This document shows positions 1,634 through 43,828 of a stretch of 64,000 bases of DNA, one piece after another. This DNA is from Psococerastis gibbosa (lineage: Eukaryota; Arthropoda; Insecta; Psocodea; Psocidae). Below the pieces are notes generated by a model. The model had not been told where the DNA came from, did no database searches, and worked only from the letters and a program-made list of their open reading frames with translations. The position numbers were made by a program, and so were the translations under genes. Each line of letters begins with the position of its first letter. Position 1 is the stretch's first letter. The stretch covers positions 9,052,001 through 9,116,000 of the forward strand of contig OZ020485.1 in the NCBI GenBank assembly GCA_963971405.1, read 5' to 3'.

Positions 1634-3005
1634 ATGCTTACTAGTGGAATATACCCGGAAGCAGCAAAACAATCAATAGTAATACCATGCTACAAATCAG
1701 AAAATAGACAATCAATTGAAAACTATAGGCCAATATCATTACTATCGAACATCAGCAAAATTCTTGAAAGAGCAATGCAAACACGAATAGATTCATATCT
1801 TACGAAATTTAAAATCATAAACAATAAACAAGACGGATTCAAAAAAAAAATCTGGCACGGCGGAAGCAATCTATGAAACAATAAATGTAATAAACGACGC
1901 AAAAGAGAAACATAAAAACTGTCTGGCGACATTCCTAGATTTAAAAAAATGCTTCGACACAATCCCACACAACATTTTAATGATAAAACTAGAGAAAATT
2001 GGTATCAGAGGAATAGGGGGAGATCTAATACAAAGCTATCTAACAAATAGAATCCAGACAACAAAAATTGACGAAACAAATAGTGATATAGGTAAGATAA
2101 CGATAGGCCTTCCCCAAGGCACAATTTTAGCTCCAGTTCTCTTTAAAGTTTATCTAAATGACTTATTAAACCAGCCACTCAACGGTGAAATCAGCGCTTT
2201 TGCAGACGATACAAAACAAATACATATCGCTGATACCAGAACCGAATTATACAAACAAGCAAACGAAGATATGGAAAAAATTAAAACTTGGATGGAAAGC
2301 AACATACTTACAATAAATCTACAAAAAACAACTTACATAGAGTATAAAAATTCAAAAACTTTCACAGACAAAACAGAATACAAAATTGATTCCATCCAAA
2401 AATCTAAATATACAAAATATCTAGGTATCGTGCTTGATGAAGAAAATAAATGGAAAAAACACATAGATCTCTTAGCGACAAAAATACGAAAAACATTTTA
2501 TAAATTTCTCCAATTAAGACAATGCCTAAATACAGAAATACTAATGATGGTATACCACGCACTAGTACAATCTATATTATCATACGGTATAACCGCATGG
2601 GGATCAGCAAACCAAAACGTCATAGAGAAATTAAACGTAATACAACGGAAGACGTTAAAAATCATTCATAGGAAACCAAATAGATACCCCACCGAAGACC
2701 TATTACAACTAGCAAACGTACTATCAATCAAAAAGCTATACATAAAAGAATCTATTTGCAACACCTACAAAAATATACATAAACAAGACAGACCCACACA
2801 TCAACACAACACTAGGTACAAACAAACAAACCCACTATCCATACAAACGGTCTCGACAAGCTACACGCAAAAACAAACCTCTTATATAGGCAAAAAGTAC
2901 TATAATAAACTTCCTCTGAAAATAAAAAACCAAACAAACTATAAAGTATTTAGAAAAATATCAAAAAATGGCTTATTGATCTCGAAATTACATAATAAAA
3001 AATAA
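1634..3005 (+). pseudogene. LINE reverse transcriptase (frameshifted)
   Basis: RT fingers motif ENYRPISLLSNISKILE lies in the frame 1634-1876. After a frameshift the palm follows, with DLKKCFDTIPHN near 1940, then GLPQGTILAPVLF and the catalytic FADDT in the frame 1980-3005. A thumb/C-terminal region with YLGIVLDEENKWKKH and the WGSA motif follows. The catalytic aspartate pair is present, but the frameshift near 1860 makes the copy non-functional. The frame ends at 3005 and the 3' untranslated tail follows. Confidence 0.8.
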
Positions 3006-3769: not shown

Positions 3770-6700
3770 CTGCAAAAATTACTATGGACATGTTCCAAAG
3801 CTTCTAATTTTATAGGAAACCGTACATCACAAGTACCAACGATATTTGTAATTCTGAAGTGCTTTGGTTTAACCTAAAACAAAGAAATCGGGGGGTAATA
3901 TTAAAAATAACAACATTAATAAAAATCGCTATTCTCTTTTCTTTTTTGAAAAAAACATAGAGACAGCGAGATTAGGGCCTTCTCTCTTACACCTAACTGT
4001 ACATAACCGATTTCGAAATATTTTGTAAACAAGGACTGGTCGTGTACTCGCCTACCCCCGATGACCCCTCCTGGAAAAATTCTGGATCTGCCACTGTGTG
4101 TATGCTGTTTTTAAGGGGTGCTGGGTGCAAAATGCAGAAAACGCAGCAAGAGCGCAGAATTGGATTTGGGAGCAATGTGTGTCATGCCGGTACCGTGCCC
4201 ACTAGGGATACATCCATCTTAAAATACAACCCGGGACTCGTTGAACACGCACACCGTTTTCTACAACAACACCTCAGCGAAAGTTTCAGCTTACCTCTCA
4301 ATTCCTTTACGTCATATCTAATTAAAAAACGCAAAAGCTGCCAAAACAGTAGTCATGACAGCTGCGTATATCCAGGCTGGGCCGCGATCGAAAAGGATGT
4401 GAATATAAAGACGTTTCGACAACAACTGTGGCAGACATATTAAGTGGCCGCGTTGATATGAATTTTATTCCATTTCATGTTTAGTATAGTTCTAGTTTAA
4501 TTCACAGTATAGTAATAGGTACCGCGTTTTGTAATAATCCACGGGAAGATAGAAGGACTGCGGGCTCGCGGCAGAGGAACACCCTGGCAGTGGCCTGTGG
4601 CCTGTGGCCAGTGGCCTGAGGCAGTGGTTAGGCAAGAGCACCACTTGCCTTTTCAGAGCAGGAGTCTCCAAGGTCCAAATTGCCTCGATGATCGCCAATC
4701 TTCGATAGAAGAGGCATTGAAACAAGTTTAACCATAAGGTCAAATGTGGTGTAACAGTTGCTACAAATTTACTTTCAGCTATTTAGTGGAGTGCAATTAG
4801 ACAAAAGCCTCGGAATCCAGGGACAGTCCATGAATATTTATACAAATTTTGAAAATGTGTTGTTAGCGGTTCCTATACAGAAAAAGTTAAAAAAAAATTT
4901 TTGCCCGCTCTCAATTTTTAACTACAGGGTGTGGCCGCATAACTTCCTCGTTTTGTAATGCGCGCCATTCGGTCGGTGGATGTCGTAGCGAAGTCTTTAT
5001 GGTCTCGTTCGAGAGGTGGGACTATACACTTTTGTCTTAGGCGTACATAGTTCCGAAGATCAAAACATTTAGATCACGTCCCCCGATCACGATACATTGA
5101 GTATTAGTGGAGTCAAAAAAAGGTAATACCTAGGAATTCAGGGCCAGCCAATGAATATTTATAAAAACTTTGAAAATGTGTTTTTAATAGAATATAGAAA
5201 AATGTTAAAAAAAATTTTGCTCGTTCTCAATTTTTAACTACAGGGTGTGGCAGCATAACTTTCTGTTTTGTAATGCGCGCTATTCGGTCGGTTTTTGTAG
5301 TAACGTAGGGTTAGTGGTCTCGTTCGAGAGGCAGGACTATACACTTTTGTCTTACATAGTTCCGAAGATCAAAATATTTAGATCACGTCTCCCAATCTCG
5401 ACACAGTGAGTATACACATTTCCGATGTTTGTCATGACTGTTTCAAGCATAGCACAATTTCTAACTGCCTCAATGTTCTCAGGGGATCTAACGGGCCAAC
5501 GGATACCAGTTCTTTGTTTTGTCGCACACGCAGTTTCTCAGAACGTAGTGACCCACGTAACAATTGATTGCCGGTCCGGAGCAGGAGTAAATTAAAGCGA
5601 TTTCGAAATGAGCGCTGGGTTGCAATCACAGAACATCCGCTCGAAAAGCAGGTCTCAATGGCAAACGCACGCTCTTCAATGTTCCAACGCATGATGGAGT
5701 CTAAACTGTGCCTCGACAAAATATTCTAGCCCCGTCTCTCGGACGATACCACTAGCACTCCGCTACGACATCAATCGACCGAATGGCTAGCATTACAAAA
5801 AAGGAAATTATGCTGCCGCACCCTGTATTATTATAGGCTAAATAAGACGAATTAATTTTTCGGAGTAACTACTGCAGATGCCGCTTTTGAACACTTCAAA
5901 AGGGTATATCTGCAGATTCAGACATGGCTCGGAAGAGAAATACCACCAGAAGAATGGGTTTGGAGATATCAATGATGCGGAATACTGATACCACAAAAAA
6001 TGACGCAGCGACCAGCTCCAGAATATTTAAAGAAAATTATTTTTTGCAAGTGCAAAACAGGATGCGGAGCGTCTTGTGGTTGCAGGAAAAACTGCACTGC
6101 TGCTTGTTTAGAATGCAATGGTGACAGTTGTATTAATCCTTCACCTACAATTTACATCAAAGAGATCAACGACGACAATAATCAATAACTTATTAAGTTG
6201 ACGATGAATTTTTTTGTAAATCGTTATTTTTTGTGAAAATTGAATAAATTAACATTAAAGTTTCAATGCCAATATAATTTATTAAAATCTTTACTGTAAA
6301 CATTTTGTTCCCCCTTCTGCCTCTCCTTCTTCAGTAAATTGTTGTTAAACAATTGTTGTAATCGAGATCGGGAATTTTTTTTTAACTTTTTTATTTGAGC
6401 TTTTAATAATAATGCAGTCCAACGCTCGTTTCACATATTCATTGACTGGTCCTGAATTCCGAGGTGCATATTACCATTTTTTTTCACTTACACTAATACT
6501 CAATGTATCGAGATTGGGAGACGTGATCTAAATGATTTGATCTTCAAAACTATGTAAGAGAAAAGAATAGTCTCGCCTCTCGAACAAGACCACTAACACT
6601 CCGTTACGACAAAAACCGACCGAATAGCGCACATTAAAAAACAGGAAGTTATGCTGCCACACCCTGTAGTTAAAAATTGAGAACGAGCAATTTTTTTTTT

Positions 6701-9700
6701 AACATTTTTCTATATTCTATTAAAAACAAATTTTCAAAGTTTTTATAAATATTCATTGACTGGCCCTGAATTCCGATGCATTACCATTTTTTTTACTTAC
6801 GGCGCTCCACTAATACTCAATGTATCGAGATTGGGAGACGTGATCAAAATGTTTTGATCTTCAAAACAATGTAAGACTACAGTGTATAGTCCCGCCTCTC
6901 GACGAGACCAATAACACTCCGTTACGTCAAAAACCGACCGAATGGCGCGCATTACAAAACAGGAAGTTGTTTTGCCGCACCCTGTAGTTAAAAATTGAGA
7001 AGGGACAAAAATTTATTTTTAACATTTTTCTATATTCTATTAAAAACTCATTTTAAAAGTTTTTATAAATATTCATTGACTGGCCCTGAATTCCGAGGTT
7101 TTTCCATTTTTTTTGACTTACGGCGCTCCACTAATACTCAATGTATCGTGATCGGGAGACGTGATCTAAATGTTTTGATCTTCGGAACTATGTACGCCTA
7201 AGACAAAAGTGCAGAGGCGGCCTTTCGGGGTGGCGACCGGGGCAATCGGCCGGAGCCTCGCGCTTGCAGGGGCCTCACGCAACCCAAGCAAATTAAAAAA
7301 ATACATAGATTTTTAAAACCCTATATATTATTTCTACACTTTTGATTATGATCAATAATTATTTATTAAGGTTATACAATAACATAACATTAAAAAACAT
7401 AAAACTAATTAAACATTAAAAAAACAATAACAGAACATACTGCAACTATTTGGATTTCATAATGAATTGGGGGTGTTTATAGGCAGGAACAACCTGAAAT
7501 AACGTTCGTTTATCAACTTTTTGGCGTCATCTCTATCGTGGCCACAAGTGAGAGGTCTTTCTCTGATTGAAAATTAATTGCACAAACAAAATCAAGCTGT
7601 CACTGCTCTCAAAATGCTTAAACCCCAACTATTTCAAGCCAATTTTTCAAAAAATTTCACCCGGGGGAGACCCCCGGGCCCCCCTTATTGGCAGTTATAA
7701 TTTTCGTCTGTACCATCTGACCGCTAGCCTATTTCAAGCCAGTTCTTCAAAAAATATCTCCCGGGGCCCCCTTTTTTGCGATTATATTCATCGCCAGGAA
7801 GATCTAACTTTTACTGCTCTCAAAATGCGTAAACCCCCCTTATTTCAGACCTGTTTCTAAAAAAATTCACCCCCAGGTGTCCACTTGTTTGCAATTGTAT
7901 TCATCGCCTGTAAACTCTAAATATTACTGTTATCAAAATACGTAAAATCCCACTATTTCAGGTATATTTTTTCAAGGCATCCCACCATTCCTTCGGGTCT
8001 CATGCGCAAAGGACACCAAGGTCATTAATATAAAAGCTGCGTAGGTCCTTGAGAACGAGTTTCCCATTTTCCTTTACTTTTATGTGGGGACGCCATATTA
8101 TACACCCCCCCATCGATAACCTATCGTTAAGCCACTGCTCGGGACCGCGGGTCAGCTCGGGAGTCGTCTGCTACCCTATCGCTCGGGAAATTCCCGTGTT
8201 TCATTTTGTTCGTAAAGTTTTGACAAAGGGCCTCGCAATGACCCGTCGCCCGGAGCCTCGCAATGGCTAAGGCCGCCTCTGCAAAAGTGTATAGTCCCAC
8301 CTCTCGAACGAGACCATAAACACTTCGCTACACACAACATCCCCCGACCGAATGGCGTGCATTACAAAAAGAGGAAGTTATGCGGCCACACTTCATTTAA
8401 AAAAATTAAAAATTTTAATCAGATACAGTATTTCAAGTTGGATTGACACACTAGCACAATGTGAACACAGTTTATTTCATAAAGCCGTCAAACATATAGC
8501 CCAGAACTAAAAGAATGAGTATGAGTATGTAAGTGCTCCTTAATTTTTCGTGCAGACTTAAGTTTTTGACCATGTGATCAATATGACGAATGTGGTGGAG
8601 TTATACATACCGGAAAGCCTATTTTTTGAATTATTTTGGCGAATTTCTTAGTAGCTAAAAGTGAGTCATCCTCATTCCTGGCGCCAGTTACTACAATTTT
8701 GCCAGTAGAAAAGATTAGAGCAGTACTCTTCGGGTCCACAATTCTCATAATACATCCACGAAACCTCTTAGGGTTATACTCCGAATTTCTGGTTCTAGTT
8801 GATAATTTTAATAGATCGAGTTCGCATTTTAGATCTATAGTTGAAACTGTGTTCCTAAAATGTAAAAAAAAAAAATAAAGGCTGATTATTAAATAAAAAA
8901 AGTACCTAACGTAAAAATGACATTTTGCGTAAAAGAAAACTTATTAATAATTCTAACAGGGACGTTTAGTCCCAATTCACCAATGTGTCCATATTAACCC
9001 CCTTTTACGTTACCAACTCGTATTATTATAAAAGGAATGGTATGATGAGGCCATAACAAAGACAGGAAGCCGGGAGGCGAAGGACAGTATCCACAGTATA
9101 GTTGGCAGTGTGGTTACAATATTTATTACTTGCACACGGTAGCTGATTTGTAGAGAAACGGACTAGGCCTATATGAACCAGTAGAGGGCACATTGTGTAT
9201 TTTATATACATACAAACTGTATACCCATGATAACATGTGATGCATCGCTCGACATTTAATGAAATTTTTTTCCACCGGGTCTGAGCTCTAACATGGTTTT
9301 TGTCAACACAGGAAATGCGCGACAGATTACAGAAAATTATGAATCACTGAATCAGGCGATGCGAGTGATTCTGAAGGCGAAATAGGACACCCACATTAGT
9401 ACCATGTTAGAGGAGTTAGACTGGTTAACAGTGGAAGAGAGTATTAAGATTAACGCCCTAACATTTGTATATAAGGTGGAGAAGAGAATGGTCCCCGACT
9501 ACTTACAAGTTCTTCATCGGGGGCATGATGTTCACGAGTATAGAACAAGGCGTAGGTTAGTGATGTGAGTGTCATCGGATCGCAAGTGAAATCTATGTTC
9601 GACGTAATACCTGAGTATAACATACTTCCCAGGGAAATAAAAAACACAACGAACCCAAAGAAGTTTAGATTAGCACTGGCAAAAAAATTTAAGAACGAAA

Positions 9701-10489
9701 GAATGCAGCACCAAAGGCAATAGACAATCAGTGATCTGAAGTTGCAGATTCTAAATAAGCGCGCGGCGCTTCTGAGTTTCTACAACAACAACAACACATG
9801 AAGCACTAAATATGGGCATCTCTAATTTCATGAATATGAATAAACAAAGTCTTTCATTTATTTCAAATTCCAGTCCCACTGTAAGAGATAAGTAGGTCTT
9901 TAATCCACTCCAGTACCTACGACCTAGACATAATATACAAAGATGTATTGCTCCTAGCGAAAATGGAGATCACAAATTAAACTTCTTCTAGTTACCGTAC
10001 TTTAGGAGTAAAATAAGCATTTGAGTATTTCTAACTAATGTATTTTAGAATGGAATATTTAAAGGGTTTTAAGCGTTAAAATTTACATAATGACACAGGG
10101 ATAAAGTCTGGAGACCAGAGTCGTCTATACGGCTCTGCTGATTTGACAAGCGCAAATGTAATATATTATGTTATAAGAAAATAAGGGTAAATGCCAAATT
10201 ATGGCTCGATTGGTAGGGAGAAGCAACACATGTTTTTAATTCAAATTTTAAGCCTTCCCTCTGACCCATGTTCCCGTTAAATTACTTACTGTAGAGTAAT
10301 GGTGGGTCGAGTGTCCAAAATAGGTGGTAGTATAGCTGCCAGAGTAGATGACGCAAAGGATAGTGGTGCATATGACTGAGCAGAGGTGCCTGGCTGTGGC
10401 TGGAGTATGGCATTTTTGCGTGGGGAGTTGAGCAATGCGGTTAGTGGAGTATCCTGGGAGGTACCTGGTTGAGGCTCCATTACCTCCAT
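3770..10489 (-). CDS. Trf: TBP-related factor (TRF1-like), 5' part; exons 10489-10290, 8854-8611, 3873-3770
   Basis: A TATA-binding-protein family gene read right to left, giving about 182 residues so far. Exon 1 encodes a Pro/Ser/Thr-rich N-terminus from an ATG at 10489 and ends with ITLQ. Exon 2 is the whole first TBP repeat (CELDL, TRTRNSEYNPKRFRG, TALIFSTGK, TGARNE, QKIGFP). Exon 3 opens the second repeat (NIVGTCDVRFPIKLEAL). Phases agree (2, 0, 2), with AG acceptors and GTAAGT, GTATGT and GTAATG donors. Both DNA-kinking phenylalanines of repeat 1 are kept. Several residues (CELDL, TRNSEY, RFRG, TGARNE, HVH) match Drosophila TRF1 as I recall it, rather than canonical TBP. TRF1 serves Pol III with BRF and some Pol II promoters in flies. 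The C-terminal exons lie beyond the left edge. Confidence 0.85.
3993..4443. other. Transposon-end-like sequence and unrecognised 133-codon frame
   Basis: About 4045-4100 resembles the end of a hAT-type element (a GGATCTGCCACTG-like terminus next to a CCCC-rich stretch). An open frame 4042-4443 on + runs through it; its C-terminal half has no domain I recognise. I do not claim a gene. It sits in intron 2 of the TRF1-like gene. Confidence 0.3.
4588..4627. repeat. Short GTGGCCT minisatellite
   Basis: Four to five imperfect tandem copies of a 7-10 bp unit containing GTGGCC, in intron 2 of the TRF1-like gene. Confidence 0.7.
5432..5719 (-). pseudogene. DUF4817-type helix-turn-helix transposase N-terminus
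   Basis: A 95-residue frame with RWNIEERAFAIETCFSSG and VIATQRSFRNRFN, matching the DUF4817 helix-turn-helix found at the start of many arthropod transposase-like proteins. About 100 bp upstream is another copy of the CAGGGTGCGGCAGCATAA terminus at 5825-5808, so this looks like the 5' end of the element whose TIR was amplified in the flanking arms. Its C-terminal part (PLDPLRT) is degenerate and no DDE domain follows. Confidence 0.6.
5876..6188 (+). pseudogene. Cysteine-rich C-terminal fragment of a transposon-type protein
   Basis: The frame reads DAAFEHFKRVYLQIQTWLG, then a stop near 5970, then continues to a cysteine cluster (CKCKTGCGASCGCRK, CTAACLECNGDSC) and ends at 6188. The spacing resembles a CXC/tesmin-like cluster that I associate with the C-termini of repetitive arthropod proteins. 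The family name is uncertain. It lies in the centre of the foldback-like element. Confidence 0.5.
7212..8281. mobile_element. Non-autonomous hAT element, 1,070 bp, with 8-bp TSD
   Basis: The ends are perfect inverted repeats: CAGAGGCGGCC at the left and GGCCGCCTCTG at the right. The flanking octamer CAAAAGTG is duplicated exactly at 7204-7211 and 8282-8289, and joining the flanks restores the foldback unit it interrupts. No transposase is inside. The interior holds a degenerate minisatellite (about 7590-7990) of roughly 110-bp units containing AAAATGCGTAAA and CCCGGGGGAGACCCCCGGG-like blocks. An 8-bp TSD and CAG start are diagnostic of hAT. Confidence 0.92.
9403..9790 (+). mobile_element. 5'-truncated LINE 3' end (RT C-terminus)
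   Basis: A frame beginning LDWLTVEESIKINALTFVYK, continuing after a stop/frameshift into NEYNRLP-like sequence and KKFRLALAKKF, is typical of the C-terminus of Jockey/CR1-type reverse transcriptases. It ends in a (ACA)n-like tail near 9782-9798. It lies in intron 1 of the TRF1-like gene, antisense to it. Confidence 0.65.
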
Positions 10490-32600: not shown

Positions 32601-35600
32601 AACCGTAAAGTAAGGGGCATTTTTACGAACCTTTAATTTGGTATATTTTTTATGACCTTAACCTGAAGGTCAATCTCTTCCATAAGGTTATAAATTTCAT
32701 TGGTTATTCTATAAAATTAAAATTTAACTTGTGCTAAACCATAAATTAGCTGTTAGGATGTGACATGTTGCACATCAAATGAAAGCCCATGAAATAATTT
32801 GTCCTGTGACACAATAATTATGAGTCTTGGGTTTGGGAGAAAGTCGTGACCTTTGAGCAAATCAATCCCGAACCTGAAGGCGTGAACTCAAAATTGACAA
32901 AATTAAAAAAAAAACATGTGATCCAAGTTAAATTTACAAGTGTAGACGAATAATACAGACTACTAGACATACTGCCAATAGAAAAACTTTATAATTATTT
33001 TATAATTCAGAATAACCATTTTAATTGTTTAAGCGAATTTGATGGAAACCGACAGAATAAGAGGCAACTGAGACATGAATGCATATTGTTGTAATGCTTC
33101 ACAGGTACAGATGCCAGAGATATTTAACAAATTGCCATTTAAATTAAAGCAATTGAATAAAATATGGAAAATTAAAATAAATACTTAATTTCAAATAGTC
33201 TATTAATTTACGTACTCGTAGTACATAGGGATCCCAGCCATGAGCGCGATGGCGGGAGCAGGTACACTTAATGGTTAATAATAGGAAATTAATAAATAAA
33301 AGTATCTTTTGCAGTGCCACCTGGGCCAAGATTGCTCGGTAAGCGAATGCTTGAATGTGAAATATTACTGTTTCGAAAAACTAATTGTCCGTAGTTACCG
33401 ACAAGGAAAAAAGTGAAGTAAAAAGCTTTTACCTAATATTATATGTTTAGTAATACTTGACAAAGTTATTTTTTTAATATCCTTTATGCCTTTATTCCTG
33501 GAATCGGGCAGACTAAGATCGCTGGCATTGGAAGTCTTTTAAATGGCAGTTCATTGGATAGTTCGACGTCAAGCTCTGTGATGTTTAAACATTTTGTGTT
33601 ATTTTACAGGGCGCACAGTTATTCCAGCACTCAAACTAGTTCAGAATGTGACAGTCCCGACTCACCTGTTGTTCCGGCCAGTCCTGTGGCTAGCGCTCCT
33701 TCTCTCTTTCCTTTTGTCAAGTCACCGCTCTCTTCTCCTAATCATTTTGGGAGGAGGTTTCTACAAGATCCGGGCGTCATAAAGTCACTGCTGCCGTCGC
33801 CGAACACCTCTGCATCGTTTTTCAACAACGAGTGTGACCCAATTAAAAGCCCATGCCTCGGTTACTACCGACCAACACCCGATCTTCTGCCACTGTCCAT
33901 GTTGGAGAAGAATTCCCTGAAGAGTCCTCTACAAACGCCCACCAGGTTTGTTACCGTGTAATTAAGCAGGCTTTCTAATTAATTTAGACATTTAAATCCC
34001 TTTGATATTTTTGTTGTGGTTTTTATCTGTAAATATGACCCAAGGTTTACTTGCTTATGCTCAAAACAAAACAAAAACAAAAAATCAGTTGCTATAGGTT
34101 CTTTGCTGGGTTTTAATAATTAATGTGGTCCCTGATAATATCATTCTGCCCGACTTCTCTTTCTTGGAGTTTAGTCCCTCAAACAGGATTGTTATGACCA
34201 TTAATTGCTGAAGGCTTTACCTCTTATTCTTCTTCTTCCGGCTCTACAGCCCTTGGTGGGCTTTGGCCTGCTCGACAACACTCCTCCATTCTTCTCGGTT
34301 TTGCACAACGCTCCACCATCTGGAGACTCCCAACTCGCGAAGGTCATTCTCTAACTCGTCCTTCCAGCGGTTTCTTGGCCGTCCTGGCAGTCGTCTTCCC
34401 GTCATGCTTGCTTTGTACATTTTTCGTGGCATGCGTTCTTCAGACATTCTTACAATGTGTCCCAGCCACCTTAATCGTTGTGCTTTAATGAACCTTACTA
34501 TGTCTTCTCCGTTGAGAGCGGCGTCGATTTCAGCGTTGTTTCTTATACGCCATTCTCCGTACTCGTAAAGGGGTCCATATATCCTTCTTATTATCTTTCT
34601 TTCGAGTACACGTAGTTTGTTGGCATCGTTTACAGTGAGATTCCAGGTTTCCGATCCGTATGTTGCAACTGGTCTTATAAGGGTTTTGTATATTCGTAGT
34701 TTTGTGGCTCTAGAGATAAGTCTTGACTTGAGCAATTTTAGGTTGGCAAAATATGCTCTATCGGCTGCTGTTATTCTTCTGTCTATCTCTGCGCTAGTTT
34801 TGTTTTGATTGTTTACTTCTGCACCAAGGTAGATGAAGCTCTTTACATTCTCGAAAGCCATTCCTTGTACAGTCAGGTTGTCACTTCTCCGTCTCCTTTC
34901 TAACGCTGACATTACTAGATACTTAGTTTTTGAGACATTTATTTCTAGTCCAGCTCTACTCGCCTCTACACATAGTCTAGCAAGTATCTCTCCTAGTTGC
35001 TTCCTATTTTTAGTGATTATGACTATGTCATCCGCATATGCGCAGATCATTTGTGACTTGTATACAATTGTCCCACTCTCTACTATATTCTGTAACGCTG
35101 CTTGCAGTGCCAGGTTGAACAGTGTAGCTGAGAGGGCGTCTCCTTGTCGTACCCCTCTGCCGAGTGGGAATTCTTCTCCACATCGTCCGTCTATTATTAC
35201 ACTGGCTCTGGCGTTTTCCATAGTCATTTTTACTAGATTAACTAGTTTTTTTGGTATTCCTTGTCGGATCATTGTGTTATATAGGCTGTCTTTCCAAATA
35301 GAATCGAAAGCCTGTCTAAAATCCACAAAGAGCATGTGTAGGTCCGTATTATGCTCGTAGCATTTTTCCATAGTTTGCCGTACAACGAAGATTTGGTCAA
35401 CAGTTCCCCTGGCTGGTCTAAAACCACATTGGTACTCGCCTATTATTTCTTCTGCATACGGTGAGATTTTTCTTAATACAGGGCTGGAACTAGGTCAGTT
35501 TTTCCCACGAAAGTCAGATTTTTCGTTTTAAGTCAGCAAAAGTCAGGAAAATACGAATTTGGTCAGGAAAGTCAGGAAAATATGCATTTCGGGTAGAAAA

Positions 35601-38600
35601 GTGAGATTTCATTCAGTATAATGATAATATAATAGGGGTATTCGCGCTGGTCTGCTTGCTTGCTAATCGAAACTTTTTCTTGTCTATTGACACTTTTTTT
35701 TGTCAATGCGACCTTTTGATTGGTCAATCGACAAAAAAAAGTTTCGATTAGCAAGCAAGCAGACCAGCGCGAATACCCCTAATATATATTATAGCCTATT
35801 TAAAATTGTGTAACTATATATAACTTGTGGTGTTCTGCAACTATGACAAAAGTAAAACAGCTCTTCAGCACTGACTGCGGTGACAACCGGTTCTATCATC
35901 AAACAGGCTAGTAAGGCGTGCATCCGCTAGAAGGTGCTGCCAGCATTAGGTTGCTTTGAAGTGGCAGCAGTTCAGTGGCGCACTTTTCACTTTGTTTACT
36001 TTTCTGCCGCTTATTAGATATTTACATTTTACAGCTCTTGTTCTTCGTAGTTGCGTTGATGCGTTTTCATTGTTGTCTATTTTTAAACGCGTTTCTGAGT
36101 TTCCTTTAATAACTTATTGTAATCAACTGAGCGACGCGTTTTCTTATAAAATATTATATGGCTTACATGCTGAAGTAGCCGTTATATACTTAAATATAAC
36201 TTATTAAGTTATTATTCACACTCAAACTCATAAGTGATAAGCCAAAGCCGACAAGGTAAGTCTAAGTAAAAGTATCAGTGTATCACTAAAGTGTGGCTAC
36301 TGGCTCGAGGAGCGAGGACTCATCGGACATACATACTATAAATATAAAATACTGTACCTATTTTGGTCATATTTCAGTGCTTGTAGAGTTTTAGTTTAAG
36401 AAAAAAGAAATGTCAAATGTCTATTATTGAAATAATTTAAGTCTAAGGAAGTAAGGAAATTGCAATATAGCCTTGTATAGGCTTTGTACTGTAAAACGTG
36501 CCTTTGAATTTGACTAACTTACAGTATGTACGTAGATTGTAGGTCTGTACGTCTGTATCTTAGGTGGATTATTACCTTAAATCATATAGCCTAAATAAAG
36601 TATTATTTCATTTCAATCGGTGAATTATATAGGTAAAGAAAAAGACACGTGTATTGTACTAGCTACGTGTTCTTTACTGCATTATTAAGTTGGGAAAGCT
36701 AATAACCAATTTGATTTAACGAAGGTGTTCTGAGCTAATTTAGGTATATTTTCATTTTCCAGTCTCCGCCAATTTACCATAGTACAATGATGTCTATTTT
36801 AATTACTTTTACTTAATTAATTTTTAAATCTACTCAATAATTTTAATGATTTGTATAATTTTCAGGTAGAACCGAAGATGGGAAAATGTAAAGTTAGAGA
36901 CTATTGGTTGACAAGAATAGATGCAAATGGCATGGCAATTAATAAGTGGGGGAAAAAGCAAGACGATGAGCATATTTTATGCTTATTTTGCAAGAAGTCC
37001 TTCAGCATTACATCTGGCTTTCAAACTGTTGAGAGACATGCTGATTCTTCGAAACACAAGGAAGCTGTCGCTCCCTATTTGTGTCCGGGGCAACTTCGGC
37101 TGTCCAGTTCCAGTGTATCTAGTGAAGCTCCTGTGGTTCCTCCCTCAATAAATGCAATTCAAGTTACCAGCCCCAGGGATGCCACTACATGGGCGGAACT
37201 GCAATGGGTGATGAAGTGTGTAGTCCAGAATTGGTCTGCATCGTCGTGTGAAAACCTTGGTGCACTTTTTGCATCAATGTTTGGTGGGAGTGCTGTTGGG
37301 GATTTTTCCATTAGTAGAACAAAATTTCGCTATTTACTAACTGAAGCTCTAGGGCAATTTTTTAAGAATGAACTCGTCAAAGACTTAACCAATGCGTACT
37401 ACACACTGTCGTTTGACGAAACAACGAACAGTGCTGGGGCAAAAGAACTGCAACTTATGGTAACATACTATTCAGGAAAACAAGAAGCAGTAGTAAGCCA
37501 TCATCTGAGAACTTTTTTTATTGCTTCAGCGACAAGTGAAATCTTAGCTGATAAAATCCTGGAAGGCATTAATGAAGCGAATTTGCCTTTATCGAAATTG
37601 TTGATGCTCGGCATGGATGGACCTAATGTCAACAAGAAAACACACCGCCTTTTATCTGAACAAATTTTAAAAATAAGAGGAAAGCCATTGATTAATATTG
37701 GATCCTGCAACATTCACGTAATACATAATGCGTATGAAAAAGGTTTATTGGAAATTGGCGAGGACGCTTCAGAATTGATCCGAAAAGTTTACTATTTCTT
37801 GAATGGCTGGCCCTTAAGGTTGAGCGACTTCAGAGAGATTCAAAATCAAATGGGTATAAAGCAGCACAGTTTTATAAAGCATGTAAGCTCGCGTTGGCTC
37901 ACTTTAGAAACGGCAGCAAGCAGAATGCTGGAACAGTGGGAGGCTGTACTTCAGTATTTTTTAACTTTTATTCCTAAAAAGAGGAATAAACTGCTGCCCA
38001 GCAAAACATACCTTGAAATAGTGAAACTACTTAAAATAAGTGACATGCGGGCTCAATTATTACTGATTTGTGAAAGCGCCAAATTATTTACGCGCTTCAC
38101 CGGCAGCTTTCAGAGCTCCAGCCCCATGATACATGTTCTGTATCACGAACTTGTTCGATTGGCAAAAGTGTTGATTAATAAAGTGTGTAAGCCGGACGCA
38201 ATTAAAGCCTTAGGTGTTTGTGAAAAAGTTTTATTGCCCGACAACCTTATCTCACCCGTCAAATTAATTCTAGGCGATGAAATTGTCTGTGAGATTAGCA
38301 AACTGAACGAAATGGACAGTTTACGATTTTTAACAAAAGCTCAAAAGCACTATGTAAGTGCTTGTAATCATATTCTAAAAAAAAGTTCAATCAACAACAC
38401 TTTTGTAAAAGCCTGTCGTGCCTTGAATCCTAAGGAGCGAAGGACACCTGCGTCTGCGAAGTGGGTGAGATCTATAGCAAGTGCACTGCCTTTTGAGGTT
38501 GACCTCAATATATTACACGCTGAGTGGCAGCTTTTACAAGATGAGGCTGATCATGTGCCCATCCAGAAAGATGGAAAATATATTCCTGTAGATCAATATT

Positions 38601-41337
38601 GGGCACATTTTTTTTCTAAAAAAACGGATGCAGGTGACATTTCATTCCCAGCAGTCAGCAAGGTTGTAAAAGCAGTGTTATCAATGTCCCATGGAAATGC
38701 TAATGTTGAGCGTGGGTTCAGCGATTCTGCCCGATACTTGACTGACGACAAAGCAAGCATGTGTGAAAGGTCGCTAAACGCTGCCATGACTGTGAAGTCT
38801 GGATTACATAAATATTTTTATAAGCCAGAGCTCCTGCCTTGGAACAAAGAACTTAGTGACTTGGCTAGATTTGCGTGCAGCTCCTATAAATCATATCTTG
38901 AAGAACAAAAGAAAAAAGCAGAAGAGGAAGATAGAATGAAAAAAGAAATTGAGGAATCGAAGTTGGAAGAAGCACAGAAAAAATTAAGAATGAAGTTAGA
39001 AAAAGATACGATTGATGAGGAAGAGTCCAGGTTGAAAGAGCTAAAAGCTAACCAGGCGGCAAAGAGAAAAATTGAAAGCAAATTGCTGGATGAAGCCAAT
39101 AAAAAGTTGAAAAATGCAGTGCAAAGAAACGATATGGTTGAGGTTGCAATCGCAACAGCCCTATTAGAGGGTGCGAAAAAAATACACAAGGAAGCTGAAA
39201 ATGAAAGTAAAACAATTAATTCTGTGGAAAAGATTGTGGAGAAGAAGAAAAAATTAATAATTACAGATTTTTTCAAAAAGAAGTAATTTTATTTAAGAAA
39301 TTTCAATTAAATATTCCTACTTCTTAAATCTGTTACTGCCAAAAATTGTTGGCTTTCTGTAATTTGTAAGATTTGCGATGACGTGTGAAATATACTATAT
39401 TTCTTATTTCCATGAAGACGCTGATTTAATTCATTTTAGTTTTGGAATTGTTAAATTTTATACGCTCATGCTCAGTATACAATACTATAGTATGTTTATG
39501 CATTTTATAACAAAGTAGCTAAACATAGTTGTTCGAAATATCATTAAGGTAGAAAATAATATTAACATAGGCTACAATATGTATGTATTTATAATGATTT
39601 ACATTCGATGATTAAATTTTCTAATTTTTCGTTACTTTAAATAGTGGTCAGCAAAAGTCAGATTTTTCATGTTTTTGGTCAGGAAAGTCAGATTTTTAGC
39701 TTGACATTTCCGGTTCCAGCCCTGTTAATAGAAGATTTGAGAAAGTCTTGTAGGCAGTATTAAGGAGTGTAATTCCTCTGTAGTTATTGCAGTCCAACTT
39801 GTCGCCTTTCTTGTAAATCGGTACTATAGTTCCTGTTTGCCATGCTTCCGGCATACATTCGTTTGCCCAGATCTTTGTAATAATGTCATGTAGTTCTTTT
39901 ACAACCTCTGACCCAGAGTATTTTAGTATTTCACTGGTGATGCCATCTTTGCCTGGTGCTTTATAGTTCTTCATCCTTTTTATGGCGTTTTCTACCTCTA
40001 TTAGTGTTGGTGGGGGTATAAGCATTTCCGCAGTTTGTGGTAGTGGTTCTTCTTCTGGTGTAGTGTCGCTCTCTTTGTTGAGTAGTTCTTTGAAGTACTC
40101 GGTCCATCGTTCCATAATACTCTCCTCTTCGCCAAGTAGTTTCCCATTCTTATCTTTGCAACCGCTTAGTCTCGCCTTGTATTCTTTCCTGAACCAGTCT
40201 GTGTCTTTATAAAATTTCCTGGTCTGATTTTGCTGCCTTTTGTTTTCTATTTCTTCTAGTTTTTTGTTAATCATTTCTTTCTTCTTTCTGCGGCATACTC
40301 GGTTTGCTTCTCTTCTGAGTTCATCATATTCTTCCTGGGCCGACCTGGTGTTTCTTTGTAATTTCCTCTTTCTGGCTTCATTCTTCCGTTGTATTATTTG
40401 TACACATTCATCATCAAACCACTCATTTCTTACGCGCTCTTTCTCTCCAATAATGTCTCTAGTCACTGTTGTCAATGCTTCTCTAAGTTGTTCCCATTTA
40501 TGGTTTATATCATTTACATTCTCGTCTTCTGCTCTTTCTTCTCTTTGTTCTTGCAGCTTATTTCGTATCTCACGTTGAAAATTATCTTTTACATCTTGTA
40601 CTTTAAATAACTCTTGGTTCCACACCGTACGTTCTTTTGGCTTTATTTTTTGGGCGTTGGACAGTCTCATCACTGCTTTAACTAGGAAATGGTCGGAATC
40701 ACAATTAGGTCCTCGGCAGGTCTTCACATCTATTACCGACGATGCGTGTCTAGCTGATACTAGGATGTGGTCTATTTGATTCGTCTCTCACTGGAACTAC
40801 AGAGACGAAGGCTTTACCTGGACAGGTTAAAAATTATCATAGAATTTTCATCGTATTGCCCTCACAGTCTAGCATTGTCATTCAAACCTCCCGTATGCAA
40901 TATCCTTTGCAGTAGTAAGTAACTAAGTAATTAATGTATTACAATTTACATATTTTACATTTAAAATGCCAACCCCTGCACTAAGTACTCTATGTAGAGA
41001 TTTGTATTGCAGGGGTAAAGTATATTCGACCTCATGAAAAGCTTGCTCTTTTATCAATGATTTCGTTGTAGTCAACTCTTATCTCATTTCCATTGCCGGC
41101 CATAAAAACAGCTGCGCTTAGTTGTTCAAATAAACGTATTATTGCATTTTCCTCAACAATGACAATTTATACTGGCTAGATTTCGCTAGTCTCTTTGTAA
41201 ATTCTTTATTGGACGCCGCCTATCCCACCTTGGTGGATCGTGGACAAAGATTGATTGATTGATTGATATGCTTTGCAAAACGTAGCGATGACGGCTTCAA
41301 AATAAGAAAATTTTTTGCTTTCTTTCAGTAATTCCCG

Positions 41338-41374
<37 letters not shown>

Positions 41375-43828
41375 GAAAGTTGACGCTTCGGACTCTTTGA
41401 ACAGCATAACTATTGGGATCACAGCAGTGTACCCCAATCATTCATACTATGGCCATTGCCAATTGCCAATCTACTGTTGAAAAACAACAGCTTTACCTTT
41501 TTCTTTTTCCATTGTAGCCATAGGGCCTGGTGAATGATTGGTGCAAAACCACATAGTCTACTTCAGAAGATTTCTATGAGTTGGCGTGTCTTATAGCATG
41601 TCGTTTTAATACCTCTATTATTGGTTAACCTGATCTTGCATTAAACAGCGATTTCCGTTGCTGTCGGAACAAGATTAAATCTAAATTGTGGCATACAGAT
41701 TTTTTAGTGTCACGAGCCTATGACTCGTACCATCTGTCCATGGTGAAGTCATTCGACTGTTGCATTGCGTCAATGGTAAGCTTGTCTCAGCTTGTCCCTT
41801 ATCGCTGGTAGCTGGTTTATGTTGTGACATCCATGCGGAAACAATACAAATAATGGCCGAAAAATCCGTGGGGTTGTTGGAGGACCATTAGTTGTCATAG
41901 GTCCATTATAAGTGAAGGCATCGCTGCCACATGTTTCTGCCAACCAGCCAGCCGGCTGTAACTTGAAGAAGAAGGTCTATAAAAAGTATTTCAGGACATT
42001 ATCATTTATTTATTTATTTATCTTATAGTAAACTGCTTGTTCTGACAATTTTCATGTTACAGGTCAGTGTTCCTACAAAACCACGTAGACAGCACGTTAT
42101 TCTTTACCGACATCCCTGGAATTAAAAGCCCTTTATCTACGCCGACCCTTCTCCGTACTGTTACGCAAACGAACAATGACGTGTTCGTAATGCCGGAGGA
42201 GCCGATACCGATACCGATCTCAGTCAAATCAGAACCCATCGAGCCCGAGAAGGAAAATGTGGGCGCCACCGGTGAAGTGAAACCGGACGTTTGCAACAGC
42301 GCAATGCTTCCGTCCCTGCTTCCCATCAACGATCTCGGGCCCCACGGTATGCCACTAGGAGGGCTAGATGTCAAGAGGGAGCCCTCCAGCCCGGAGGCGG
42401 ATAGATCTCATGATGAATATTCATATCTGGACTCGAAACTGATCGAGTCTTACAGTAAACTTAATAGGAACTATTATATACCCCAGAACTATGGTTTTTA
42501 TTGCTCTGATACGCCTACGCAACCTCAACATATATACCCTGATCAACCACCTCCTCGAGGAAAACCAGCCAATTACCAAAAGCCACAGACATACCGGAAG
42601 AACTCAACGGCAAAGCGAGCGAGCGACAAGTCTGAGGATGAAGCTCCAAAGAAGTCGAAGAAGGAGCTTGACGAAGAGAGGCCGCGACGGCCAATGAATG
42701 CCTTTATGTTGTTTGCGAAGCATCAGCGACCTTTGCTCATTCAGCAACACCCGGGAAAAGATAACCGGTAGGTCGTACTAACTTCTCAGTTTTTTCAATG
42801 ATACTTAGGGTATTCACAATATTACAATAGTATTAAATGGTTATCCCTGGTTAAGTGTGTTAAGTTCAGCTAATGCATTGCAGTAATATATGGTATAACA
42901 CTGACATTAAATTAACTTAGGTCAATGATCACTTCCGCGTTATAACCGAAATTAGAGGTATAGAAAAAACTGGACTTGGTGAGATTCGAACCCACGATCT
43001 ACCCCTAACTGGGGCGGGTTACCTCTTCAACCAAAGTTAATTTAAAGTCAGTGTTATATATTATGGGCCTATACCATATACCTTTATTCAAAGCATTGCC
43101 TTTATGCCATAAAGTAAGCTCTTAGACCTGTTCGGTTAGATAGTTGTGTAGCTGTGCTAACCTGTCTAGCAATACGAATCATGTCAATTTGAGCATAAGT
43201 AGAGGATTTGGAGAAGGCTGGTCTTGTCGGGCCCCGGTTAGGCGTAGATCGTGGGCTCTAATCCCGCCAAGTCCAGTTTTTTCATATCCTCTTATTTTGG
43301 TTAAGTTCAGTTCAGTTAAACCTCGTGGAAACTCAAAACTATGGTAACCAGCGTGTCAGTTAAACGCGCTTCAGGGTTGGCTAAGCCCTTAACCGGCGCT
43401 GCGTTCGATATTTTAATGGAATGCATTCGATGAGCCGACGCCATATTTGTTTTTATACAGTATATATAGTGAGTGTCTCCAAATTGACTTCGTGGACCTT
43501 GAACATACTTCTAAGTATAAAATTGAAAAAACGCAAATGTTCCACAATAAATTTTATTAAATGTGACCGGTTTCGGTAAGATACCATGATCAGACATTAA
43601 GGCTGGATTGACTCTTGTTTCAGGGCCATAAGCGTAGTCCTTGGGACGACGTGGAGGGAGCTGGACGCTAGTGAGCGAGCCGAATATGTGCGACGTGCAG
43701 CCGCCATGGCGGTGGAGCACAAGCGGCGTCACCCAGACTGCTGGAAGAGGAGACGAAGAGAGGTCCGCGTTAACAGCAACGCGGCGGCTCCACCCATCGC
43801 CGCTACGAACCTTGCGACAACTAGTTGA
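29685..43828 (+). CDS. HBP1: HBP1-like HMG-box transcriptional repressor (4 coding exons)
   Basis: Exons 29685-29902, 33610-33945, 42063-42767 and 43624-43828 join in phase (2,2,2) into 487 aa. In vertebrates HBP1 represses cell-cycle and Wnt targets by binding DNA. The HMG box is split by the last intron: RPRRPMNAFMLFAKHQRP then PGKDNR in exon 3, AISVVLGTTWREL and HPDCWKRRR in exon 4; this PGKDNRAISV...PDCWKR pattern is specific to HBP1. Near the N-terminus FATSPRSPLVQ matches the TSPQSPL motif of HBP1. The middle is Ser/Pro-rich with SP motifs, two sumoylation-like VKSEP/VKREP sites and a Lys-rich stretch before the box. No AXH domain is visible, unlike vertebrate HBP1. The first exon follows an acceptor and is open upstream of the ATG, so more 5' coding sequence is possible. 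Confidence 0.9.
30340..30386. repeat. GCGGGCCTACTA MITE, half copy
   Basis: CCAGGAATAAGTTAATACTA followed by AGTAGGCCCGC matches one end of the 14293-14448 element. HBP1 intron 1. Confidence 0.55.
30651..32441 (+). mobile_element. Tc1-like transposon, degenerate, TA-flanked
   Basis: Ends CAGTGGCGGAGAA and TTCTCCGCCACTG are inverted and flanked by TA. The TIR homology extends about 95 bp (AGATCT...GGGCTAATATGAAAATTACAAGAAAA). Within is a broken transposase: KVIYKLRERGHSIRKIADMIG-like HTH near 31210, then NVLFGDETKINLFGSDG (31585-31635) with the first catalytic Asp of a DDE/D domain. Stops and frameshifts follow to about 32140. A SINE has inserted in the left TIR. HBP1 intron 1. Confidence 0.85.
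30751..30967 (+). mobile_element. tRNA-derived SINE, family 1, nested in the Tc1 element
   Basis: Pol III box A (TAGCGTAGTGGTA, about 30757) and a perfect box B (GGTTCGAGTCC, 30800-30810) lie in a tRNA-like head. A unique body with CTCCGCTAGGTTGGCTTAGTA follows, then a (ATT)n tail. It interrupts the Tc1 left TIR, and the right TIR shows the uninterrupted version. Flanks show an imperfect AGTTGG duplication. Another copy is at 63608-63790 in reverse. Confidence 0.8.
34244..35371 (-). pseudogene. LINE reverse transcriptase, C-terminal part
   Basis: 375 residues with VDFRQAFDSIWKDSLY (palm A), GVRQGDALSATLFNLAL (motif B), catalytic AYADDIVI (motif C), YLGAEVN, and a C-terminal RLRWLGHIVRM plus GRPRNRWKDEL. 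The frame is open from 35371 to its stop at 34244. Upstream, sequence between 35371 and 35478 continues the same protein (QCGFRPG) but with a one-base frame break. Dead because it is truncated and interrupted. Confidence 0.85.
35635..35779. repeat. 145-bp near-perfect palindromic MITE nested in the hAT
   Basis: GGGGTATTCGCGCTGGTCTG starts an inverted repeat of about 50 bp that is matched almost without mismatch at the right end. TA flanks both sides. The near identity of the arms means a recent insertion or strong arm conversion. Confidence 0.88.
36881..39286 (+). CDS. hAT transposase with BED finger and coiled-coil C-terminal tail
   Basis: An ORF of 801 aa from MGKCKVRDYW (an upstream ATG at 36851 would add 10 residues, but an acceptor-like TTTTCAG lies between). 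It begins with a BED-type finger (CLFC...H, SSKH). The RNase-H-like core follows: LSFDETTNS with the first Asp near residue 179, GMDGPNVN with the second near residue 245, and NANVERGFSDSARYL with the catalytic Glu near residue 608 inside the hAT dimerisation domain. Beyond about residue 666 is an extra tail of about 135 residues that is Lys/Glu-rich and predicted coiled coil, ending LIITDFFKKK, a PIP-box-like motif. The frame is uninterrupted, so the protein may be functional. It excises and reinserts the element by cut and paste in the nucleus. Confidence 0.92.
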   Translation, partial: GKCKVRDYWLTRIDANGMAINKWGKKQDDEHILCLFCKKSFSITSGFQTVERHADSSKHKEAVAPYLCPGQLRLSSSSVSSEAPVVPPSINAIQVTSPRDATTWAELQWVMKCVVQNWSASSCENLGALFASMFGGSAVGDFSISRTKFRYLLTEALGQFFKNELVKDLTNAYYTLSFDETTNSAGAKELQLMVTYYSGKQEAVVSHHLRTFFIASATSEILADKILEGINEANLPLSKLLMLGMDGPNVNKKTHRLLSEQILKIRGKPLINIGSCNIHVIHNAYEKGLLEIGEDASELIRKVYYFLNGWPLRLSDFREIQNQMGIKQHSFIKHVSSRWLTLETAASRMLEQWEAVLQYFLTFIPKKRNKLLPSKTYLEIVKLLKISDMRAQLLLICESAKLFTRFTGSFQSSSPMIHVLYHELVRLAKVLINKVCKPDAIKALGVCEKVLLPDNLISPVKLILGDEIVCEISKLNEMDSLRFLTKAQKHYVSACNHILKKSSINNTFVKACRALNPKERRTPASAKWVRSIASALPFEVDLNILHAEWQLLQDEADHVPIQKDGKYIPVDQYWAHFFSKKTDAGDISFPAVSKVVKAVLSMSHGNANVERGFSDSARYLTDDKASMCERSLNAAMTVKSGLHKYFYKPELLPWNKELSDLARFACSSYKSYLEEQKKKAEEEDRMKKEIEESKLEEAQKKLRMKLEKDTIDEEESRLKELKANQAAKRKIESKLLDEANKKLKNAVQRNDMVEVAIATALLEGAKKIHKEAENESKTINSVEKIVEKKKKLIITDFFKKK
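39725..40806 (-). pseudogene. LINE endonuclease end and RT N-terminal part
   Basis: Residues DSDHFLVKA are the C-terminal motif of the LINE endonuclease. Then come a long charged linker, WTEYFKELLN, KAPGKDGITSEILKYSG (RT finger), VPIYKKGDKLDCNNYRGITL and AYKTFSNLL, at which point the hAT TIR interrupts. It pairs with the 34244-35371 fragment on the other side of the insertion. Confidence 0.85.
41170..41270 (+). mobile_element. Solo LINE 3' end with (GATT)n tail
   Basis: TGGACGCCGCCTATCCCACC followed by GGTGGATCGTGGACAAA and four GATT units. The same microsatellite end as the LINE at 1-3270 suggests a related, heavily 5'-truncated copy. HBP1 intron 2. Confidence 0.5.
41340..41371. repeat. (ATT)n microsatellite
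   Basis: About ten uninterrupted ATT units in HBP1 intron 2. Confidence 0.9.
42890..43085 (-). mobile_element. tRNA-derived SINE, family 2, within an inverted-repeat frame
   Basis: Minus-strand box B GGTTCGAATCT follows GTAGATCGTGG and precedes CACCAAGTCCAGTTTTTT. On both sides are inverted copies of about 25 bp containing TATAACACTGAC and TTAATTT. HBP1 intron 3. Confidence 0.55.
43145..43295 (+). mobile_element. Second family-2 SINE copy, opposite orientation
   Basis: GGCGTAGATCGTGGGCTC, TAATCCCGCCAAGTCCAG and TTTTTTCATATCC match the copies at 42890-43085 and 51100-51215. Box B is mutated (GGGCTCTAATCC). HBP1 intron 3. Confidence 0.5.

Follow-up and report, generated by a model that had tools for sequence, protein, structure and literature searches.

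A complete TBP-family gene of the barkfly Psococerastis gibbosa, distinct from TBP and TRF2, as a candidate orthologue of fly TRF1

A five-exon TBP-family gene

The window analyzed here is a stretch of 64,000 bases of contig C2 of the Psococerastis gibbosa genome, with window base 1 at C2:9052001. Its minus strand carries the first three exons of a gene of the TBP family, and two further exons lie to the left of the window (positions are those of the window unless given on C2):

Exon 1, 10290..10489, minus strand: 66 full codons from the start codon (first base at 10489), then the first two bases of Gln codon 67, phase 2
Intron 1, 8855..10289, minus strand: 1,435 bases, GT-AG, phase 2 between LQ and N
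Exon 2, 8611..8854, minus strand: first TBP repeat (NTVST...IGFP)
Intron 2, 3874..8610, minus strand: 4,737 bases, GT-AG, phase 0
Exon 3, 3770..3873, minus strand: beginning of the second TBP repeat (VKPKHFRITNIVG...SNFC), ending in core codon 116 in phase 2, with its 3' end at 3770
Exon 4, C2:9049967-9050061, minus strand: 95 nt, about 1.9-2.0 kb left of window base 1
Exon 5, C2:9048858-9048934, minus strand: 77 nt that encode ...KSFRKQ and close with the stop codon, about 3.1 kb left of window base 1

Exon 4 was found through a match to the Pfam TBP profile at C2:9049965-9050072 in a search of the genome (409,210,807 bases), and exon 5 with a TBP C-terminus as the query. Joined, the five exons form a frame of 720 nt (239 codons and a stop) with no internal stops, the sole stop falling at a TBP-like terminus directly after KSFRKQ. 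All splice borders are canonical, with GT at 4/4 donors (that of exon 1 reads GTAAGTAA) and AG at 4/4 acceptors; an RNA fold of the exon 2 donor gave nothing notable. The N-terminal tail encoded by exon 1 contains no poly-Gln stretch. The joined protein matched Pfam TBP (PF00352) with 201.3 bits in two stretches, against a cut-off of 22.9, so that two tandem repeats are present, and it also matched 10 NCBIfam TATA-box-binding-protein models, each below the cut-off of its own.

An earlier note on this DNA, written from the letters of the window, had joined the three minus-strand exons in phase into one and a third TBP repeats and had placed the C-terminal exons left of the window. Its outer coordinates, 3770 and 10489, proved exact, and exons 2 and 3 do encode one whole repeat and the first part of a second. 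Both C-terminal exons were found where it had placed them, and no stop interrupts either. The observation of three exons was right, yet understated: the gene is complete.

Several other features were seen around the gene. Within intron 2, window positions 4783-7216 contain units about 309-321 bases apart. Two of the units run one way and three the opposite way, so that they make up large inverted repeats (226 nt long at 92% complementarity) in the manner of a foldback-like element. The rest of the window holds the following:

1821-3005, plus strand: LINE-type reverse transcriptase in open frames from position 113 (PF00078, 88 bits)
33461-33961, plus strand: reads by eye like an earlier exon of the HMG-box gene below, perhaps; no Pfam match
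34244-35494, minus strand: LINE-type reverse transcriptase (PF00078, 111.3 bits)
36821-39286, plus strand: open frame of 821 aa, no Pfam match at 0.001
42046-42771, plus strand: exon in which a long Pro/Ser-rich stretch is followed by positions 1-28 of the HMG box (PF00505, 26.6 bits)

The start of the 821-aa frame resembles a zinc finger, and by its appearance the frame may encode a transposase. The HMG-box gene is a host transcription-factor gene adjoining the TBP paralogue.

Three TBP-family genes in the genome

The new gene is one of three members of its family in this genome, the others being a canonical TBP gene at C2:35.457M (C2:35456906-35459479) and a TRF2/TBPL1 gene at C3:34.594M. 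In the Pfam TBP search of the genome 7/8 candidates matched, and in the protein search 9/10 did at E values up to 1; every one of these matches falls in the three genes, and neither whole-genome search found a fourth. The barkfly TRF2 owes its assignment to Trp 214 (human numbering) and to the 40-43% of residues that it shares with TBPs, a Trp in place of Phe at position N.L5.1 being described as a mark of TBPL1 (PMC7221094); by our alignment, N.L5.1 is human position 214.

Over the core, the new protein shares 107/172 residues (62.2%) with the barkfly's own TBP, 101/171 (59.1%) with human TBP, 104/172 with yeast TBP, 103/171 with Chaetomium TBP, 92/148 with a partial row of Arabidopsis TBP and 58/170 (34.1%) with the barkfly TRF2. 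Among the 148 columns covered by the partial Arabidopsis row, it keeps 82 of the 115 that are invariant in five TBPs. The 37.8% of residues replaced relative to the barkfly TBP exceed the divergence of that TBP from its human (9.4%) and yeast (19.2%) counterparts. At the 16 columns where barkfly and human TBP differ, the new gene has the barkfly state in 8, the human state in 3 and neither in 5; of those 8 barkfly states, 5 occur also in yeast and are therefore old. Lys 182, Asp 323, Ser 334 and a terminal KQ before the stop are common to the new gene and the barkfly TBP and are absent from every other TBP row that extends over these positions (the last two human residues lie outside the compared rows). 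These shared states favor an arthropod TBP ancestor for the new gene.

Constraint on the new gene

Nucleotide differences between the new gene and the barkfly TBP are distributed over the three codon positions as 44, 41 and 109, each of 172 (chi-square p 1.2e-10, a value to be read loosely, because third positions also collect synonymous changes of TBP). As saturation of dS left NG86 without a value, codon positions and simulations were used in place of dN/dS. The 3,000 neutral simulations, substitution-only, started from the barkfly TBP core and were stopped at equal protein identity; 37/3,000 ended without a stop codon. The mean BLOSUM62 score of the 65 observed replacements was +0.31, compared with -0.49 in the simulations, the highest of which reached +0.21, and 92 of the 133 columns invariant in four TBPs were kept, a number that 1/3,000 simulations reached, against a simulated mean of 81.8. 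On these patterns of substitution, we conclude that the new gene is under purifying selection.

The same evidence bears on whether the gene is a decaying TBP pseudogene or a retrocopy lying among transposons, as its surroundings of reverse-transcriptase frames and repeats and its long branch in the trees described below might lead one to suppose. A retrocopy is at odds with the presence of introns, and decay with a 720-nt frame that is open over five exons and eight canonical splice borders, as well as with the excess of third-position differences and the conservative nature of the replacements; we regard this explanation as very improbable. The claim of the earlier note that the locus holds a TBP paralogue is borne out by the frame, the identities and the simulations, which support an intact and constrained gene distinct from both the TBP and the TRF2 of the same genome.

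Functional residues

In human numbering, the new protein retains Phe 197 and Phe 214 (both in exon 2), Phe 288 and Phe 305, together with Glu 284 and Glu 286, whereas the barkfly TRF2 has N, W and H at 197, 214 and 288 in the same alignment. Phe 197 and Phe 288 are DNA-kinking residues. With the canonical barkfly TBP it has in common the two repeats, the four DNA-kinking Phe, the TFIIB/Brf glutamates, the intron between LQ and N and the KQ terminus, and its N-terminal tail is, by eye, unlike the TBP exon before the core.

The consequences of changing some of these residues in TBP have been reported: mutation of yeast TBP F116 (N.L5.1) reduced DNA binding, and F305A in human TBP cut transcription, while the two glutamates (284, 286) contact TFIIB, the Arg that meets E284 being kept in Brf1 and Brf2 (PMC7221094). 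In the N-lobe of the new protein we found the changes R205V, R231L, K181L and A184S, along with the conservative R235K and R239K; through R205V and R231L two basic N-lobe residues are lost. The basic positions N.L2.3 and N.H2.13, 17 and 21 are described as a surface common to TFIIA, TAF1, Mot1, Brf1 and Brf2 (PMC7221094), and from their spacing we infer that H2.13/17/21 correspond to 231/235/239. The face that contacts DNA and the stirrup for TFIIB/Brf thus look intact and the regulatory N-lobe face looks to have drifted, a pattern that is reversed in the barkfly TRF2 at the positions examined.

These residues also bear on the idea that the new gene is a second gene of TRF2/TBPL1 type. Two of its intron sites are common to it and TRF2 (see below), which would fit such an origin, but TRF2/TBPL1-type identity is contradicted by the Phe at N.L5.1 (human 214), where the barkfly TRF2 has Trp, and by 34.1% identity to that TRF2 versus 62.2% to TBP, and we give the idea practically no credence.

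Introns and the age of the duplication

The introns of the three genes are placed as follows:

New gene: between LQ and N just before the core, phase 2; codon 82, phase 0; codon 116, phase 2; codon 148, phase 1
Barkfly TRF2 (core introns): codon 33, phase 0; codon 116, phase 2; codon 148, phase 1
Barkfly TBP: between LQ and N, phase 2; codon 70, phase 2

Intron 1 of the new gene thus occupies the same site as one intron of the barkfly TBP gene, and 2/3 of its core introns match those of TRF2 to the nucleotide (nt 347 in phase 2 and nt 442 in phase 1), the exon between them being 95 nt in both genes. The chance of that coincidence among 516 sites is 7e-5, ignoring preferred insertion sites. The TBP gene itself, with one core intron (codon 70) against three in the new gene (codons 82, 116 and 148), is without the two core introns that both its paralogues carry. 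We consider that the introns at codons 116 and 148 are probably ancestral and were lost by the barkfly TBP after the new gene had split off. The introns shared with TRF2 and with TBP mark the new gene as an old DNA-level duplicate and not a retrocopy, and if those at codons 116 and 148 are indeed ancestral, it was not copied recently from the TBP gene as it now stands either. The intron pair held in common with TRF2 offers a dating mark for duplicates of this kind, one that is independent of residue changes.

Phylogenetic position

Trees were inferred under LG+G4 from six rows, the new gene and five TBPs, and, with the barkfly TRF2 added, from seven rows. The new gene falls outside the pair of barkfly and human TBP (PgTBP+HsTBP) in both, on a branch of 0.64 in the six-row tree and of 0.54 in the seven-row tree, its grouping with that pair having support 55/40 and 47/11; neither tree contains a starred branch. 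A sister relationship of the new gene to the barkfly TBP was not rejected (AU p 0.198 with six rows and 0.194 with seven), nor was a grouping of all five TBPs together without the new gene (p 0.398, seven rows).

Taken at face value, the position outside barkfly and human TBP, together with introns older than the present structure of the TBP gene, could point to an animal TBP duplicate that predates the arthropods and was lost in most lineages. That position lacks real support and concerns a long row, however, and Lys 182, Asp 323, Ser 334 and the terminus agree with descent from an arthropod TBP, so that we think a pre-arthropod origin quite improbable.

A more serious alternative is that the gene arose as an independent, fast-diverging duplicate of TBP in Psocodea or more broadly among hemipteroid insects and converged on TRF1. 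Both the unrejected sister position and the states shared with the barkfly TBP (Lys 182, Asp 323, Ser 334 and the KQ terminus) agree with such a history. Against it, the introns at nt 347 and 442 are found in TRF2 and not in the barkfly TBP, which suggests that the new gene probably split off before TBP lost them, and the divergence of 37.8% is greater than that between the barkfly TBP and human or yeast TBP, although a fast duplicate could need less time. We hold an independent origin to be possible but rather unlikely.

Relation to TRF1

TRF1 is known from the fruit fly and a mosquito and has been described as insect-specific; in flies its core is 63% identical to that of TBP, and it acts with Brf1 in TFIIIB (PMC3142196). 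The earlier note had called the present gene TRF1-type, on the strength of residues that would be typical of Drosophila TRF1 (CELDL, TRNSEY, RFRG, TGARNE, HVH), and had supposed that a genome outside the Diptera would bear on the origin of TRF1; the genome is indeed not dipteran, P. gibbosa being a barkfly (Psocodea). Like TRF1 of Drosophila and Anopheles, the new gene is a second insect TBP-like core beside TBP and TRF2, here in a barkfly rather than a fly or mosquito and likened to TRF1 through the published identity figure. The observed 62.2% is close to the published 63%, a weak criterion, since a different old duplicate might match it equally well. The vertebrate TBPL2/TRF3 (TBP2) is likewise an additional TBP duplicate, but it is reported to be vertebrate-specific and 95% identical to TBP (PMC2731028), as opposed to the 62.2% seen here.

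Sequences that might serve as TRF1 comparators were sought more widely. None of the 35 solved sequences matched is named TRF1, and no relative was confirmed among viral contigs (8 and 34 stretches) or among genome contigs (48 and 21 stretches). Our literature searches on TRF1 and on TRF1/TRF2 in Bilateria found no TRF1 outside flies and mosquitoes, though full texts may hold one; the result of the search on TRF1 would also accord with an independent duplicate in the barkfly lineage. PMC1852559 makes no mention of TBP, TRF, TATA or polymerase III. The TRF1 of Entamoeba, as it appears in PMC5842622, is another use of the name and was set aside.

Weighing the frame, the residues and the introns, we interpret the new gene as an intact, functional and diverged insect duplicate of TBP, and, with somewhat better than even confidence, as the orthologue of fly TRF1. 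More tentatively, and with a good deal of doubt, we propose that TRF1 originated by duplication of a TBP gene that still had the codon 116 and 148 introns, at a time before hemipteroid and holometabolous insects diverged, and that it then changed its N-lobe regulatory surface (R205V, R231L, K181L), TRF2 having oppositely changed its DNA face. Should orthology hold in a tree with fly sequences, TRF1 would be older than flies; the presence of a TRF1-like gene in a barkfly makes the timing of the second insect TBP addressable by such trees in non-dipteran insects.

Proposed role of the new protein

We propose that an old duplication at the DNA level, in which introns were kept, gave rise to the new gene. 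Its protein would bend TATA-like DNA through the saddle and would offer its conserved C-terminal stirrup to a TFIIB-type partner, either TFIIB or, as in flies, Brf1, while the altered N-lobe surface would cause TFIIA, TAF1 and Mot1 to bind it differently from TBP. In this way the protein may take the place of TBP at some of the promoters, probably those transcribed by Pol III. The genome contains one Brf1 locus (1/2 candidates), and a partnership of the new protein with the product of that locus in a Pol III role is what we would infer from the fly system. A simple partnership with Brf1 is made somewhat less likely by R205V and R231L, which by our mapping alter an N-lobe surface also used by Brf1 (PMC7221094). 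If the early origin of TRF1 proposed above is true, the hand-over of Pol III from TBP to TRF1 would date from early insects rather than being peculiar to flies, and whether flies alone made this move is addressable by pull-down in non-dipteran insects.

Other features of the genome

Some further observations were made on the assembly at large. COX1 was matched at 43 places, of which 42 are on contigs other than the mitochondrial C68, and one such match, on contig C14, spans 326 profile positions; many nuclear copies of mitochondrial DNA are implied. TTAGG arrays fill 4/14 of the contig-end pieces counted, and one piece with N at both ends showed no repeat. Matches to insect odorant receptors were obtained for 6/27 candidates in the genome. 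On the mitochondrial contig of 17,084 bases, tRNAs and frames read by eye place nad3 between nad5 and trnN, and trnM-trnC-trnI-trnQ ahead of nad2. This order agrees with translocations that have been reported in psocomorphan barklice (PMC3632521).
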